A stretch of 64,000 nucleotides of DNA from Streptomyces sp. RKAG293. Lineage in GTDB: Bacteria; Actinomycetota; Actinomycetes; Streptomycetales; Streptomycetaceae. Both the position numbers and the translations under genes were made by a program. The stretch lies in assembly GCF_023701745.1 (NCBI RefSeq), contig NZ_JAJOZB010000001.1, positions 2,300,501-2,364,500 on the forward strand. Reading direction: 5' to 3'. Positions 56,420-63,909 of this stretch are shown in pieces (position 1 is the stretch's first letter; every line of letters starts with the position of its first letter). The notes beneath the pieces are model-generated. The model made no database searches, was not told where the DNA came from, and saw nothing but the letters and a program-made list of their open reading frames with translations.

Positions 56420-56504
56420 GTCCGGGTGGCGGAATGGCAGACGCGCTAGCTTGAGGTGCTAGTGCCCTTTATCGGGCGTGGGGGTTCAAGTCCCCCCTCG
56501 GACA
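56420..56504 (+). tRNA. tRNA-Leu (anticodon GAG)
   Basis: The 85-base class II tRNA has acceptor stem GTCCGGG/CTCGGAC (one G-U pair), anticodon stem CTAGC/GCTAG and loop TTGAGGT with anticodon GAG at 56453-56455. A long variable arm (TGCCCTTTATCGGGCG) and the T arm GGGGG-TTCAAGT-CCCCC follow. CCA is not encoded. It reads CUC and CUU codons. It marks the change from core genes to the accessory region on its right, as expected for an island insertion point. Confidence 0.96.
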
Positions 56505-56511
56505 CCTGTGA

Positions 56512-56677: not shown

Positions 56678-58705
56678 ATGCGGGAAATGACCAAGGGCGC
56701 CAATGTCGGCCTGGCGACGTTGAGCGAGGACACCGGCTCCGTGATCGTGAGTCTGGGCTGGAGCAGTGCGACCGGGGACGGGGACGCGGATGTCTCCGTG
56801 CTCCTGCTCAACGCCGACGGCAAGGCCCGCAGCGACGCGGACTTCTTCTTCTACAACCATCCGGCCGCCCCGGACGGCAGCGTTCAGCTGCTGGGCAAGA
56901 CGCCCACCGCGAACGGTAACGAGGACCGGATCAGCCTCGATCTGACGGCGATGCCCGCGGACGTCCAGCAGGTCGTCGTCGCGGCCAGCCGGTACGGCGA
57001 CGATCGGTTCGGCACCCTGGAGGACCTGCGGCTGACGCTGGCCGACGGTTCCGGTGAGAACCTCCTCGCGTTCCCCATCACCGACGCGGGCGTCGAGAGC
57101 GCGTTCATCTTCGGTGAGCTGTACCGGCGGGGCGAGGAGTGGAAGTTCCGGGCCGTCGGGCAGGGGTACGAGACCGGGCTCGGCGGACTGGCCACGGACT
57201 ACGGCATCGACGTCGATGACGCCGATGAGGACGTCGACGATGCCCATGAGGCGGAGGAGGAAGGTGCGGCGGTCGTTGCTGATGTGCCGGCCGCGCCGCC
57301 GCCCGCCTTCGAACATGAGCCGGTCCCCGAGGTTCCGGTGCTCCCCGCGGGAGCCGCCGCCCCCGAGAACGTCCCCGAAACCCCCTTACCGGTGAAGCGC
57401 CCGCGTACCGCCAAGAAGAAGGTGACGCTGCCCAAGGCGACCAGGAAGTCGCTCGCCGAGAACGACTCCTGGCGGCCCTCCCGGCTCTTCCCGGCCTCGT
57501 CCCTCAAGAGCGACCACGAGCGGGAGACGCGCGCCACGTCCATCCTGCTGTCGGTGATGGCCGAGGTCCCCGAGTTCGGGCGCCGGCTCACCGCCGCGTT
57601 CGGGGCTCCCGCCGGCCGGATGGAGACGTTCACCGAAGTCTCGCTGCCGCACGGCGAGACCCCGAAGCGCCCCGACGGCGTCATCCGGGTGGAACGCGCC
57701 GGCCGGCTCTGGACCGCCCTGGTCGAGACGAAGACCAACGGCAATCCGCTCAAGGGCGAACAGGTCCAGGACTACATGGACATCGCGGCCCGCCGGGGCT
57801 ACGAAGCCGTGATCACCGTGTCCAACGACGTGGCTCTGGAAGGCAGCCCGCTCGTGGACGTGAAGATCGACGGGCGGCGCAAGCACAAGGTCGCCCTGTG
57901 GCACCTGTCCTGGGCCGAGGTCACCCAGCAGGCCCAGATGCTGATCCGCCACGAAGGCGTCGGCAGCGCCGCACACGCCTCGCTCCTCGAGGAGTTCCTG
58001 CACTACCTCCAGCACGAGAACTCCGGCTGCCACGGCTTCCAGAACATGGGCCCCGCGTGGGTGCCGGTGCGCAACGGCATCGACGAGGAGACCCTCTGCC
58101 AGGGCGACCAGCGCGCGGTGCAGGTCGTCGAGAACTGGGAGCGGCTGATCCGGCAGGTCTGTCTGCGACTCGGCGGTGAACTCGGCCAGAAGGTCCTGCC
58201 GGTCCAGCGCGCGAAGCGCGGTTCCGATCCGCAGTCACGGCGCGCGGCCCTCGCCGACAAGCTCTGCGACGACGGCCGGTTGCACGCGGAGATCCGTATC
58301 GACGGCAGCGTCGGGATCCTGGCGATCACCGCCGACCTGCGCACCGGAAAACTGCGGATCTCCCTGGAGATCCCGCGCTCCGAGCAGGGCTACCCGCTCT
58401 CGTGGACCAAACGCCTGGTCCGCCAGCTCGCCGAGGCCCCGGCCGACCTCCATATCGAGACCCTGGTCGAGGGCCACGGCAGCGGCCCCCGCGGCACTCT
58501 GGAGAGGCTGCGCCCCGAGCCCGGTGACCTCCTCCCCAAGGACGGCGGCCAGATCACCGGGTTCCGCCTCTCCCTCTTCAAGGGCATGGGCAGTTCCCGT
58601 GGCAGTGCCGAGTCCGGCTTCATCCGCAGCGTCGACGCCGCGGTGGACCGGTTCCACTCCACCGTCGTCACCCAACTGGAACGCCCGGCGGCCCGCCGCC
58701 CGTAG
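56678..58705 (+). CDS. TerD domain fused to a PD-(D/E)XK nuclease-like domain
   Basis: The 675-residue protein starts at the ATG with GAGGGGG upstream. Residues 1-185 are a TerD domain (MTKGANVGL...VSLGWSSATGDGDADVSVLLLNADGKARSDADFFFYNHP), a calcium-binding fold of tellurite-resistance and stress systems. An acidic Pro-rich linker (186-265) and a basic stretch (KRPRTAKKKVTLPKATRKS) follow. The second half has RPDGVIRVE (D333) and WTALVETKTN (E350, K352), the D...E-x-K nuclease pattern, then YMDIAARRGYEAVITVSN. The C terminus (about 480-675) is unassigned. It faces the SNF2 gene, with 28 bp between the stops. Function is inferred to be DNA-targeting stress or phage response. Confidence 0.8.
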   Translation: MREMTKGANVGLATLSEDTGSVIVSLGWSSATGDGDADVSVLLLNADGKARSDADFFFYNHPAAPDGSVQLLGKTPTANGNEDRISLDLTAMPADVQQVVVAASRYGDDRFGTLEDLRLTLADGSGENLLAFPITDAGVESAFIFGELYRRGEEWKFRAVGQGYETGLGGLATDYGIDVDDADEDVDDAHEAEEEGAAVVADVPAAPPPAFEHEPVPEVPVLPAGAAAPENVPETPLPVKRPRTAKKKVTLPKATRKSLAENDSWRPSRLFPASSLKSDHERETRATSILLSVMAEVPEFGRRLTAAFGAPAGRMETFTEVSLPHGETPKRPDGVIRVERAGRLWTALVETKTNGNPLKGEQVQDYMDIAARRGYEAVITVSNDVALEGSPLVDVKIDGRRKHKVALWHLSWAEVTQQAQMLIRHEGVGSAAHASLLEEFLHYLQHENSGCHGFQNMGPAWVPVRNGIDEETLCQGDQRAVQVVENWERLIRQVCLRLGGELGQKVLPVQRAKRGSDPQSRRAALADKLCDDGRLHAEIRIDGSVGILAITADLRTGKLRISLEIPRSEQGYPLSWTKRLVRQLAEAPADLHIETLVEGHGSGPRGTLERLRPEPGDLLPKDGGQITGFRLSLFKGMGSSRGSAESGFIRSVDAAVDRFHSTVVTQLERPAARRP

Positions 58706-58733: not shown

Positions 58734-60932
58734 TCACGAAGCCTCGTCCCCCGTGGCGGAGGTGGCGAGGCGGAGTTGTTCCTCCGCCACGATCTGGCGG
58801 GCCAGGGACTGTTCGGAGATGTCGACGGCTTCGGGGGTGGACTCCGCGGTGTCGCTGCGGCGGGCGTAGGCGTCGAAGAGGCGCTTCTTGCCGTCGAGGA
58901 TTTCGAGCATGCGCTGGTCGATGCTGTCGGCCGTCAGGAGGCGGTGGACCTGTACCCGGCGGACCTGGCCCATCCGGTGGGCCCGGCCGATGGCCTGGGA
59001 CTCCATGGTGGGTTTGACCTGGGGTTCGCAGAGGATGACGACGGACGCGGCCTGCATGTTCAGGCCGACTCCGCCCGCCTGGATCTGGCTGAGCAGCACG
59101 GCGTGGCCGGGGGTGGCCGTGAAGTCGTCGACGAGTTGCTGGCGTGCGGTGACGGCCACGCTGCCGGTGATGGGGCCGAGGGCCGCGTCGCCGAGGGCTT
59201 CCCGCACGGCGATCAGGACATCGCGGAAGTAGGAGAAGACGACGACCTTCGCGTTGTTCTCCGCGGCCTCCCTGACGAGTTCCAGCAGGCGCTGGAGCTT
59301 CGCGGACTTCGTGGGGTCGGCGTAGGCGGCCCGCCGCATGGCCATGAAGTTTCCGGCGGTCACGGCCGAGCGGTACGCGGTGAGGTCGGCGGCGGTGAAC
59401 TCCTCCCACTCGTCGACCTGGATGAGCTCGGGGAGTTCGGTCAGCACGTCCAGCTGATTGCGCCGGAGGTAGGCGGGGGCGACGGCGCGGCGGAACACCT
59501 CAGAGCCGGCGACGGCGTCGCTGTTGCGGACGTGGGGCACGAGATCGGGCTGGAGGTAGTGGACCAGGTTGCGGAACTCCTCGACCCGGTTCTCCATCGG
59601 CGTGCCGGTGAGGAACAGGACGTGGCCGGCACGGGCCGTCCAGCGGGCGACGGATCGGGAACGGCGGGCCGCCGGGTTCTTGACGTAGTGCGCTTCGTCG
59701 ACCACGAGCATGCCGACCGTGGTCTCCTCCGGGACCACCAGGGTGTTCAGGCCGTCGAACGTGGTGACGGCGACATCACCGCACCGGAGCCACTCGTCCA
59801 GAGCGGCTTCGCGGTAGGGGCCGTGCACCCGGTACGCGTCCAGCGTGCTGCGGGATTCGATCTCCCGCGTCCAGTTGATCAGGACGCTGGCCGGGCAGAC
59901 CACGAGAAAGTGCGTCCGCCCCTCCGCCTTGAGATGGGCGAGTGCGGCGATGGCCTGGATGGTCTTCCCGAGCCCCATCTCGTCGCCGAGAACCACCCGG
60001 CGCTGGGTGAGAGCGAATCGGGCCCCGAAGTCCTGGTAGCCGCGCAGTGAGACCCGGCGGTGGGTGTCGTCCAGCCGCTGGGCCCGCACCCGGCCGGAGA
60101 TGTCGGTCGGCAGGAACCCCTCGGCCGCGTCCGCGTCCGGCGCCAGCCCGGCGATCTCGGCGAGCAGGCTGTAGTAGTCGGGTGAGCGGACCTGGAAGTC
60201 GATCCACGCCTCGTCGGCCGGAACCGGTGGGCGCAGCAGATCCGTGGAGGCCTGGGCGAGCAGCAGCGGCGTGGCGTCGTCCGTGCGCGCGACGAGAAGG
60301 GCGTCGATCGCCTGGACCGCGTCCTGTGCCTCCTTGCGGCCCGTCCGCCCGGCGAACAGCATGCGCAACCGCCCCCGGGCCGGCCGGGCGCCGGCCATCA
60401 GCGGGGCGAGTTCACCGTCGATCCGAGCGGCTGCCGCGACGGCCCGGGGAATGTCCGGCCCGGCGTTCACCAGCTGGTTCAATGCCGTGACCAGCTCCGT
60501 CGTACGAGGATCGGCACTCGCGTCGGGATCGATGCGGACGGTGACATGCTCCGCGACCGCCTCCGCGATCTGCCGCGCGGCGGCTATCGCCTGAACCGCG
60601 CTCTGCGCACCGATGCCGGGGAGCTGCTGGAGCGCGTACTGCCGGGCGTCCAACACCTGCCGGACCGTGGAGTACCCGGCCTGCTCCAGGGCGGTCAGCC
60701 GCAGCCGGCCCTCGGTCACGTCCTTGAGCCGGGAGACCGGAATGCCGTCCAGCTCACGACGGACCAGCTCGTCCTTCAACGGGTCCAGGGCGCTCCGGAC
60801 CGCGGCGCGGGCCTGATCGTGATCGGCGATCACTCCCCTGGCAGCCGCCATGAGGGCGTCAGCCCTCAGAAGCACCTCCCTGGCTCCCTTGCCGGCAGGC
60901 ACCGCCTTCCGCTCCAACCCGACCCCACCCAT
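58734..60932 (-). CDS. SNF2-family helicase with N-terminal helix-hairpin-helix
   Basis: The 732-residue protein has a helix-hairpin-helix at about 78-120 (LTALEQAGYSTVRQVLDARQYALQQLPGIGAQSAVQAI), then a full SNF2 motor: motif I GDEMGLGKTIQA (317-324 for DEMGLGKT), motif Ia VVCPASVLINW, motif II VVDEAHYVKN (412-415 for DEAH), motif III FLTGTPMEN, and the C-terminal helicase lobe with LSQIQAGGVGLNMQAAS and IGRAHRMGQ. Such translocases often accompany nucleases in defence loci. GAGGGG precedes the ATG. It follows the DUF262 gene by 69 bp on the same strand. Confidence 0.92.
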   Translation of the reverse strand: MGGVGLERKAVPAGKGAREVLLRADALMAAARGVIADHDQARAAVRSALDPLKDELVRRELDGIPVSRLKDVTEGRLRLTALEQAGYSTVRQVLDARQYALQQLPGIGAQSAVQAIAAARQIAEAVAEHVTVRIDPDASADPRTTELVTALNQLVNAGPDIPRAVAAAARIDGELAPLMAGARPARGRLRMLFAGRTGRKEAQDAVQAIDALLVARTDDATPLLLAQASTDLLRPPVPADEAWIDFQVRSPDYYSLLAEIAGLAPDADAAEGFLPTDISGRVRAQRLDDTHRRVSLRGYQDFGARFALTQRRVVLGDEMGLGKTIQAIAALAHLKAEGRTHFLVVCPASVLINWTREIESRSTLDAYRVHGPYREAALDEWLRCGDVAVTTFDGLNTLVVPEETTVGMLVVDEAHYVKNPAARRSRSVARWTARAGHVLFLTGTPMENRVEEFRNLVHYLQPDLVPHVRNSDAVAGSEVFRRAVAPAYLRRNQLDVLTELPELIQVDEWEEFTAADLTAYRSAVTAGNFMAMRRAAYADPTKSAKLQRLLELVREAAENNAKVVVFSYFRDVLIAVREALGDAALGPITGSVAVTARQQLVDDFTATPGHAVLLSQIQAGGVGLNMQAASVVILCEPQVKPTMESQAIGRAHRMGQVRRVQVHRLLTADSIDQRMLEILDGKKRLFDAYARRSDTAESTPEAVDISEQSLARQIVAEEQLRLATSATGDEAS

Positions 60933-61001: not shown

Positions 61002-63580
61002 TTATCCCGCATCACGTTCGCCGGCGTGCAGGGCAGTGGTGTGAACGAACCACTCGAGGACGGCACAGATCTCGTCCGGGCGAGAGGCGAAGACATCCAG
61101 CGGGAAGGTGGGATACAGCTCCAGCTTCGCCTCGGCCAGATCGATGCCGTCGATCCGGTTGAACCGCAGCAGGAGTTCACGGCGCAGCGCCGCGTCGTCG
61201 AAGGGTGCCCGCTCCTTGAGGTGTCCGAAGGGGACCTCCGCCACGCCGGTCACCGGGTAGAGGCCGAGCGGCCGCATCGTTCGGGAGCGCGGTGAGGTTC
61301 CGACGTCGAGGAGGGGGAAGCAGCTGGTCTCGGCGCCCCTTCCGTAGTCCAGGTGGCACGCGGGATCCTGCTGTTGCCAGAAGCGGAGCACGCTGCGGAG
61401 GCTCTCGTTCGTGGCCGGCGCTTGGTTGGTGGAGAGAAGTTCGCCGAAGCGGGTGGCCCGGTCGGTCGTGTCCGCTGCCGGGGAAGGGGTCGTGACGTCG
61501 TCGTGCGCCCGGAGTTCCTTTCCGAGCAGCTCGGCCAGTTCCTCCGCGACGAGACGCGACGGCCGGTGGGCGCGGCCCGCCTCGTCGAAGCCGACTCCTT
61601 CCGCTTCGAGCAGTTCTCGCGGTGAGCGATCAGCGGGCTCATAGGCGGCCGAGACACGTCCGTCGGCATTGAGCACCCGGTAGTCGCCGTGCACGCCCTT
61701 GGCCGTGAGGAAGGTCCCCACGGCGACGGGGTGGCTGCCGATGAGTTCGGCGATCGCCCCGTAGGTGGTCCACGTGCCGGCCGGCATCGCGAGAAGGGCG
61801 GCCCGCAGTTCGGCCCAGCCGGGCCATTCGTCGTCGGCGCCGGGAGCACCGTCCTCGGGTCCGGGCCACAGTTGGACGGCCCGCTCGGAGAGCGCGTCCG
61901 CGCGGAGAGCGCGTCCGCGCGGACCAGGATCTCGGCCTTCCCCCAGCCGGATGCGCCGGCGATCTCACGGTTCATGCGCAGGGCGCTGCCGTCCAGGATC
62001 TGTTGCTTGCGCTGGAAGGGGTGGTTCGACAGCTTCGAGTTCTCACCGGTGAGGGTCAGATTGCCGAGGGTGTGCACCAGCAGGTCGCGCAGGTCCTGCG
62101 GGGTCTGGCCGTCCTCGGTCTCCTTCGCGAGCAGCTCGAACCACGCCTCGGCCGGATGCTGCGGAAGGACGTGTTCGACGGTGAGCGCGGCCTTGGCGAA
62201 GTCGACCGGCTCGGCGGAGTCGTAGCTCTCCTCCAGCCGGCGAAGCACGTAGTGGCGCTGGTGGGACTTTCCCGCCCAGTAGAACGGCTTGGTCCTTACG
62301 GCGGCGGAGAGTTCAGCGTCCGTGGGCCAGTAGCGGCGGCGGCCCGACAGGTAGTGCCGGATCGCCTCGGGTACCGGCAGATGCGACTTCTCCAGCTCCT
62401 TGGGGGCTTCGACGAAGATCCGGTTGAGACTGCTCGGAGAGATCTGACAGATGAGACGCCTGACGAGAAAGCTCTCCACGTACGTCAGGGATTCCACGGC
62501 GGCCTCCGCGTCGAGCCGGCCGGCATCCACCAGATCGAGCACCTGCAACGCCACCGGGTAGTACGTCTGGTTGCCCCAGTCCGCGAGCCGCGACAACACC
62601 TCGCGCAGAGCCGGGTGCTGCTCCCGCTCCGGACGCAGGACGCGCAGCAGGCGCTCCGACAGCCGGACGAGGTCCGCGATCTCCGCCCTGAGCGCGTCCT
62701 CATCACCTTCCACCGGCTTCAGACGCTGCTGCTGGGCTTCGTAGATCTCACTGACCTTCGGTTTGGACACCCCCCGCAGCACAAGGTCCAGCCAGAAGAG
62801 CAGTTCCAGGTTCTTCGGGCCGAGGCCCTGCTGCATGGGCAGCCACAGCTCCTGGTACACCTGCTCACCCTGTCGGGGCAGCAGCATGAAGAGGTGGTTC
62901 CGCAGCAGGTCGCTCTGCTGCAGCTGGACACCCGTGTTGTTGATGGACTTGAAGATCCGGTAGACGTTGTCCCCGGGCTCCGCGGTGATCTCGACGATGG
63001 AGAGCAGCCCGCCCAAAACGGTGACGACCACTCTCGCCCAGGTGTCTCCACCTTCCTCCTGGCCCCGCGCTAGCACGCCCCGGAAGAACCGGTAGGCATG
63101 CCCGATGTTGTCCCCGCCCCCGGCGCGCGGGCTGCCCGCGACGCACGCGATGAAGGCGCCGCGGTCCGCCTGGGTCGGCAACAGCCGGTAGTGGTCGTTG
63201 CCGTCAAGGAACTTGTTGACCAGATACTGCTCGTGGATCTTCTCCGCGAGCATGGCGATCTCCTGACCGCCGGTTTCGCGAATGTGATCGCGCAGCGCGG
63301 TGAACGCCACCATCAGGGTCGTGAGCCGCTGTTGCCCGTCCACCACCAGCCAGCGCGATACGCCTCCGGCGCTCATCTGGCCCGGTGCGAGGACGACGGA
63401 GCCGAGGAAGTGGGACGGCGTCCTCACTTCGGCCATGGCCTGGCCGACCAGCTCCGTGACGTCGTCCCACAGCTGCTTCAACTCCTTGTCCGTCCAGCTG
63501 TATGTGCGCTGGTAGAGAGGCACCTGGAACTGCTTCTCCCCGGCCACCAGCTTGCTGAACGTGACTTCCTCGGCATGCAC
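61002..63580 (-). pseudogene. Frameshifted GmrSD-like DUF262-DUF1524 gene with MGMT-like domain
   Basis: This is one gene split by a 17-bp tandem duplication at 61888-61921. The first part, from the GTG at 63580 (GGGGAGG upstream), encodes about 553 residues. The DUF262 NTP-using domain (VPLYQRTYSW; DGQQR at 81-85) is followed by the DUF1524 HNH-like nuclease with its histidine near 470 (VEHVLPQH) and LGNLTLTGENSKLSNHPF; beyond the duplication the frame reads nonsense to a stop at 61250. The second part (from an in-frame ATG at 61787) has an MGMT-like DNA-binding domain (MPAGTWTTYGAIAELIGSHPVAVG...YRVLNADGRVS) and an unknown C-terminal domain. With one repeat copy removed, the length is exactly 854 codons with stop. 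Confidence 0.85.
61888..61921. repeat. Exact 17-bp tandem duplication inside the DUF262 gene
   Basis: GAGAGCGCGTCCGCGCG occurs twice in direct succession, at 61888-61904 and 61905-61921. Since 17 is not a multiple of 3 it shifts the frame between the nuclease half and the MGMT-like half. Reading with one copy gives a continuous protein, AEILVRADALSERAVQLWPG. Confidence 0.95.
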
Positions 63581-63611
63581 GACGCGCCTCCCCTGGCGTG
63601 GCCGATGTGCC

Positions 63612-63860
63612 TCATCGACCACTTGGCGTCACCCTACGCGCACCCTCCGACAACGAGTCCCCGCCCAACGCCCCACGGAACAGCGGAGCTACGCCTCCGC
63701 CGGGCGGCGGGCGGTCGGCGGCGGGCCGTGAACGTGAGTCGGTCGCCGCGCCCGGGCCCGGGCCGACTTCGAGCAGATGGGCGCCGAGATCGACGTCGCG
63801 CGTGACCGCGGGCAGGACGTCGTTCCGGAGGTGGGCGGCCCGCTCCGTCATGGATCTGCT
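63612..63860 (-). pseudogene. Decayed fragment of a class I SAM methyltransferase
   Basis: The translated segment MTERAAHLRNDVLPAVTRDVDLGAHLLEVGPGPGAATDS looks like the start of a small methyltransferase, with the SAM-binding loop LLEVGPGPGAAT. After it, no frame continues the fold, and no usual N terminus precedes it. It reads as a remnant in the gap between the DUF262 gene and the next gene. Confidence 0.45.
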
Positions 63861-63909
63861 CGAACCGGCACGCGCACCCTGGCGCGGGCGAACGGCCAGG
63901 CGAGCCGGG

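Follow-up and report, generated by a model that had tools for sequence, protein, structure and literature searches.

The window, a 64,000-nucleotide stretch of the Streptomyces sp. RKAG293 genome, contains an open reading frame at 56678-58705 on the plus strand (the strand of all features of this gene given below) that encodes one protein of 675 aa. Its ATG at 56678 follows a purine-rich stretch (gaggggg), its stop codon ends at 58705, and ten further genomes of this genus contain full-length relatives with 69-90% identity. Residues 3-175 (56684-57202) matched the TerD family (PF02342) with E=3.2e-47 and 160.8 bits versus a curated cut-off of 25.3. A first-pass annotation of this DNA had given the same coordinates for the gene, called the TerD domain and described an acidic and then basic linker, all of which was borne out. 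The linker (residues 176-257, 57203-57448) passes from an acidic part (about 177-195) through a Pro/Ala-rich part to a basic part (241-257), and this basic stretch is present in fused relatives and missing from stand-alone forms of the module behind it. That module of about 410 aa, on which no Pfam, NCBIfam or PADLOC model reached its cut-off, comprises a predicted PD-(D/E)XK nuclease domain (residues 262-461 as modelled, 57461-58060) and a C-terminal alpha/beta domain (residues 464-674, 58067-58702).

The gene begins 171 bases after a tRNA-Leu(gag) (56420-56506, plus strand), which forms the left border of a variable site. Comparison with close relatives revealed that the segment 56554-63906 is missing in two of them, while a third retains nothing of it beyond 58716, having the TerD-nuclease gene alone, and resumes at 63907; the gene is thus acquired or lost by itself, as one unit. 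The site also holds an SNF2-family helicase gene (58734-60932, minus strand), which converges on the TerD-nuclease gene at a distance of 28 bases, and a GmrSD gene (61002-63622, minus strand), both missing from the close relatives. The GmrSD gene displays an apparent reading-frame change near 61860, with codon statistics switching from the frame of 61250-63622 to that of 61002-61787; the latter frame carries a methylguanine-methyltransferase-like DNA-binding domain (30 bits), and the change may reflect a broken gene, a sequencing error or a real shift. The SNF2 and GmrSD genes were ruled out as functional partners, since they are not common to the relatives' loci. Adjacency to a tRNA was likewise ruled out as a general rule, with a tRNA right beside the gene in only 1 of 20 other loci, and a search of about 75 kb downstream returned no att-type repeat of the tRNA end.

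To the module, the first-pass annotation had assigned a nuclease site made up of D333, E350 and K352. Across 141 distinct module sequences (113 fused to TerD and 28 without it), these three residues stand at the positions given and are invariant in 141/141, down to sequences with 26% identity to the window protein: D333 belongs to the PD motif (57674-57676), and E350 and K352 form the (D/E)XK motif (57725-57733; E350 at 57725-57727, K352 at 57731-57733). Equally invariant (141/141 each) are P332, the acid E320 ahead of the motif (57635-57637), and Q362 and Y366 (57761-57775), and the same residues had earlier proved invariant across 28 diverse module sequences. Only 37 of the 407 aligned positions are conserved at 98% or more, which puts the chance of hitting all three named residues at about 7e-4. 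The order E...PD-x16-ExK-x9-QxxxY matches the one known from RecB-like PD-(D/E)XK nucleases, including the QxxxY after ExK that is a feature of this subgroup.

The predicted fold pointed the same way. The AF2 model of residues 262-461 (pTM 0.73; middling confidence, like the other models built from 77 close relatives) has the expected alpha-beta-beta-beta-alpha-beta core with the motif on its central strands: in domain numbering, a helix is followed by strands 74-79 and 82-91 (bearing ExK), helix 99-112 (bearing QxxxY) and strand 116-121, and the motif residues lie on the expected elements. Foldseek placed EcoT38I (prob 0.98), MspJI and McrC (both 0.97) at the top, the four best rows having prob 0.97-0.98 and E 1e-3 to 2e-3. 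VIA-align gave Z scores of 4.4-7.0, mostly to PD-(D/E)XK proteins (AF1548, FokI, AspBHI, R.BspD6I, McrC, MspJI, PaqCI, EndoMS, Shedu, a VRR_NUC protein (4qbn), Cap4, Hjc and others). With no Z above 7, each of these scores taken alone is middling, and the weight of the assignment comes from the fact that most rows belong to one superfamily and that the invariant residues agree independently. The first-pass annotation had made its nuclease proposal depend on conservation of the named residues and on a nuclease-like fold, and the fold predicted by AF2 and compared by Foldseek and VIA-align was indeed nuclease-like. The profile search against nuclease families that it had put forward as a check was negative: among the Pfam, NCBIfam and PADLOC profiles run against the module and 28 relatives, no nuclease model scored above its curated cut-off, the best hint being VRR_NUC (PF08774) over residues 330-382 with 13.2-14.4 bits versus 23.8. 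Searched against the sequences of solved structures, the module profile gave chance-level matches only. Taken together, motif conservation and modelled fold make it very probable that the first half of the module is a PD-(D/E)XK nuclease with putative catalytic activity.

The C-terminal domain (residues 464-674) is the best-modelled part of the module. Structure comparison of this part with solved proteins gave Z 8.1 for both 1yb3 and 2a8e, 7.7 for YbjN (6vu7), 7.3 for Spa15 and 7.1 for ExsC, followed by more type III chaperones; these matches form a coherent set, yet a Z of 8 is near background, and the region lacks a Pfam match. The roughly 190 C-terminal residues that had earlier been left without assignment can be given a tentative one, in that the modelled structure resembles the YbjN/type III chaperone fold. 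YbjN proteins are described as sharing a common dimerisation interface and acting by protein-protein contacts (PMC5398634), and DR1245, a YbjN-like protein of Deinococcus, as binding the SSB-like repair protein DdrB (PMC3575483). By analogy, the C-terminal domain may dimerise or bind a partner.

The module is scattered: 58 of the 395 class genomes and 20 of the 396 genomes drawn from the phylum contain it, and relatives of it are encoded by 564 stretches in the named genome collection. In lineages without the fusion it stands alone, as a protein of about 430-500 aa, and is found in many Actinomycetota. In a tree of 38 representatives all TerD-fused forms fell into one clade (100/97), indicating a single fusion event whose product was kept in several families. 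Genomes with the stand-alone module are nearly free of TerD (34 of 35 have no TerD domain and the remaining one has a single TerD). In the class sample, any TerD was found in only 26 of 118 genomes. Fused genomes carry 7-16 TerD domains in each of the 14 checked, the class sample reaching as many as 20; these counts include at least one, the fusion's own. The same division appears within one genus (g46), in which two fused genomes have 9 and 7 TerDs and two stand-alone genomes 1 and 0; the co-occurrence is partly confounded by phylogeny, as TerD-rich families are few. From this pattern, the module does not need Ter to exist, and its TerD-fused form lives where a Ter network is present.

The genome of RKAG293 itself encodes 15 TerD domains, its canonical TerDs being proteins of about 191 aa. 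Other divergent TerDs of this genome also stand at the N-terminus and are joined by Pro/Ala linkers to further domains (L187:1486-2865, L190:790-2049), one to a vWA-like domain with a DASGSM motif and another to a second TerD. With divergent TerDs heading several longer proteins, this domain type apparently serves as an adaptor at the N-terminus.

Considering the architecture, the conservation, the predicted fold, the single fused clade and the co-occurrence with TerD-rich genomes, we regard it as likely that a metal-dependent nuclease was recruited into the Ter network. The engine would be the PD-(D/E)XK site of D333, E350 and K352, with E320, Q362 and Y366 around it, and its most likely substrate would be DNA; the YbjN/type III chaperone-like domain would most likely dimerise the protein or hold a partner. 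In cells lacking any TerD the stand-alone nuclease presumably works by itself. In one ancestor, a divergent, non-canonical TerD would have been joined to the nuclease N-terminus by a long flexible linker, and since then this TerD may have been the adaptor or sensor through which the nuclease is brought to, or switched with, the Ter network found in TerD-rich actinobacteria; that network would then gate the activity of the nuclease. For the recruiting step on its own, we lean towards the TerD domain as the part that brings the nuclease to this network. The connection of Ter signalling to DNA cleavage that had been proposed at the outset thus gains support only of an indirect kind, from the single retained fusion and from the pattern of TerD co-occurrence.

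Two readings would change the working parts of this scheme. A catalytically dead scaffold that keeps only the nuclease fold would accord with the presence of RPB5 among the fold matches and with the fact that dead forms are common in the PD-(D/E)XK superfamily, but every motif residue is invariant in 141/141 relatives, across classes, which renders this reading highly improbable. The other, suggested by the first-pass annotation, is a calcium-switched nuclease in which Ca2+ bound by TerD controls cleavage. The domain is indeed a TerD family member, and the solved structures closest to it, 3ibz and 2kxt, are canonical TerDs. An acidic loop, GDNxTGxGxGDDE, which from TerD structures we take to be the calcium-binding one, is present in both of these and in the genome's own canonical TerDs. 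This loop is missing in 17 of 17 fusion TerDs compared, GDN being replaced by GKT in most and the window protein reading GKTPTANGN-ED at this place, while a second acidic loop (DxDxS) is partly kept. The description of the domain as calcium-binding therefore found no support in the fusion TerDs examined, and calcium gating of the nuclease is unlikely as judged from these loops.

Two candidates were considered for the biological role of the nuclease in the Ter network. The protein may be a single-gene anti-phage or anti-plasmid effector, with TerD or the Ter network sensing infection or foreign DNA and the nuclease destroying invading or host DNA. The gene is accessory and patchy (58/395 class genomes), is carried on Streptomyces and Rhodococcus plasmids, and was gained or lost singly in a variable site behind tRNA-Leu, here alongside an SNF2-family helicase and a GmrSD restriction gene; moreover, earlier work connects TerD with anti-phage systems and McrBC-like restriction genes (mentioned in PMC3710099 and PMC7824862). 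As this tRNA-side site with its SNF2 and GmrSD genes suggested defence, the six neighbours of the gene at each of 20 other loci (120 genes) were compared with 20 control regions (116 genes). No defence enrichment was observed, PADLOC matches being fewer near the gene than in the controls, which ruled out a general defence-island setting, and the SNF2 and GmrSD genes were absent from the other loci. PADLOC system models did not match the window protein; a PDC-S26 match in one of 28 relatives (E=0.003), missing in nine others scanned, was dismissed as chance. No relative of the module was found in the phage records and viral contigs searched. We regard a defensive role as less likely than not. 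Alternatively, the protein may be a nuclease for DNA repair or chromosome maintenance under stress, whose YbjN-like domain binds a repair partner as DR1245 of the YbjN fold binds DdrB (PMC3575483). Among the proteins matched in fold are the mismatch nuclease EndoMS and resolvases of the Hjc type, and the Pfam list around the relatives is one of ordinary chromosomal genes without defence enrichment. Patchy spread, plasmid carriage and gene remnants are, however, unusual for a maintenance gene, and neither a conserved repair neighbour nor any other conserved gene partner was found in 12 stand-alone and 16 fused loci, where the only recurrent clusters were the gene itself and overlapping shadow frames. 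Repair can accordingly be offered only as a tentative role. We entertain with similar reserve a more specific form of the recruited nuclease, namely a one-gene defence or stress-suicide switch in which the divergent TerD senses a signal of the Ter network (a nucleoside-like ligand or a protein contact, not calcium) and releases the nuclease, itself of an undescribed PD-(D/E)XK family, so that Ter would gate DNA cleavage directly and within one polypeptide.

The mechanism of Ter and TerD has long been unclear, and a connection to DNA processing has been suggested mainly by comparative genomics. With TerD stably fused to a predicted nuclease whose active site is fully conserved, a single protein is available in which to test the link between Ter and DNA, and the stand-alone sister form in cells without TerD serves as a natural control for telling nuclease function apart from Ter control. 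Comparison with known systems places the module near the PD-(D/E)XK superfamily (EcoT38I, MspJI, McrC, FokI, AspBHI, Hjc, EndoMS, Shedu and Cap4), with which it shares the D...ExK site and the predicted core fold, and with whose RecB-like members it shares the invariant preceding acid and QxxxY. It differs in having no recognised family model, a TerD in front and a YbjN-like domain behind. VRR_NUC matches locally and weakly over ExK/QxxxY and has 4qbn among the fold matches, but the window protein is much larger and falls below the curated cut-off. Against canonical members of the TerD family (PF02342; 3ibz, 2kxt), the clear TerD domain of the fusion is divergent, without the GDNxTGxGxGDDE loop, and joined to a predicted enzyme. 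Cap4, in which a SAVED receptor and a nuclease domain combine ligand sensing and a PD-(D/E)XK nuclease in one chain, may serve as a model of how the protein works; here TerD replaces SAVED, and the window protein is not a member of that family. The theme itself is already known: a 2012 paper (Anantharaman, Iyer, Aravind, Mol Biosyst; cited in PMC7824862) predicted DNA-processing systems linked to Ter, and PMC3710099 mentions an anti-phage system that depends on TerD and has McrBC-like genes. The 2012 prediction, compared here by title only, connects Ter proteins to DNA processing and restriction, whereas here nuclease and TerD form one polypeptide. With that comparison by title, what is new would be the union of both in one chain, the so far undescribed module and the stand-alone form as a natural control. 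The nuclease plus YbjN-like module is in itself a widespread actinobacterial family without a Pfam, NCBIfam or PADLOC model.

Several minor observations concern the remaining copies. Stand-alone modules end, after a variable stretch, in a conserved tail such as LVSTALSSQDG (L058-L062, L066-L070), which looks like a short binding motif and is missing from the fused forms. The plasmid copies have no constant neighbours, and in the plasmid records with a gene table the only name given is 'TerD family protein'. Decayed or shortened copies were also encountered (L012/L136 of Actinacidiphila epipremni, L037 and L038), namely one module whose TerD part is unreadable, another with a broken reading frame and a remnant of the C-terminus, which points to turnover of the gene.
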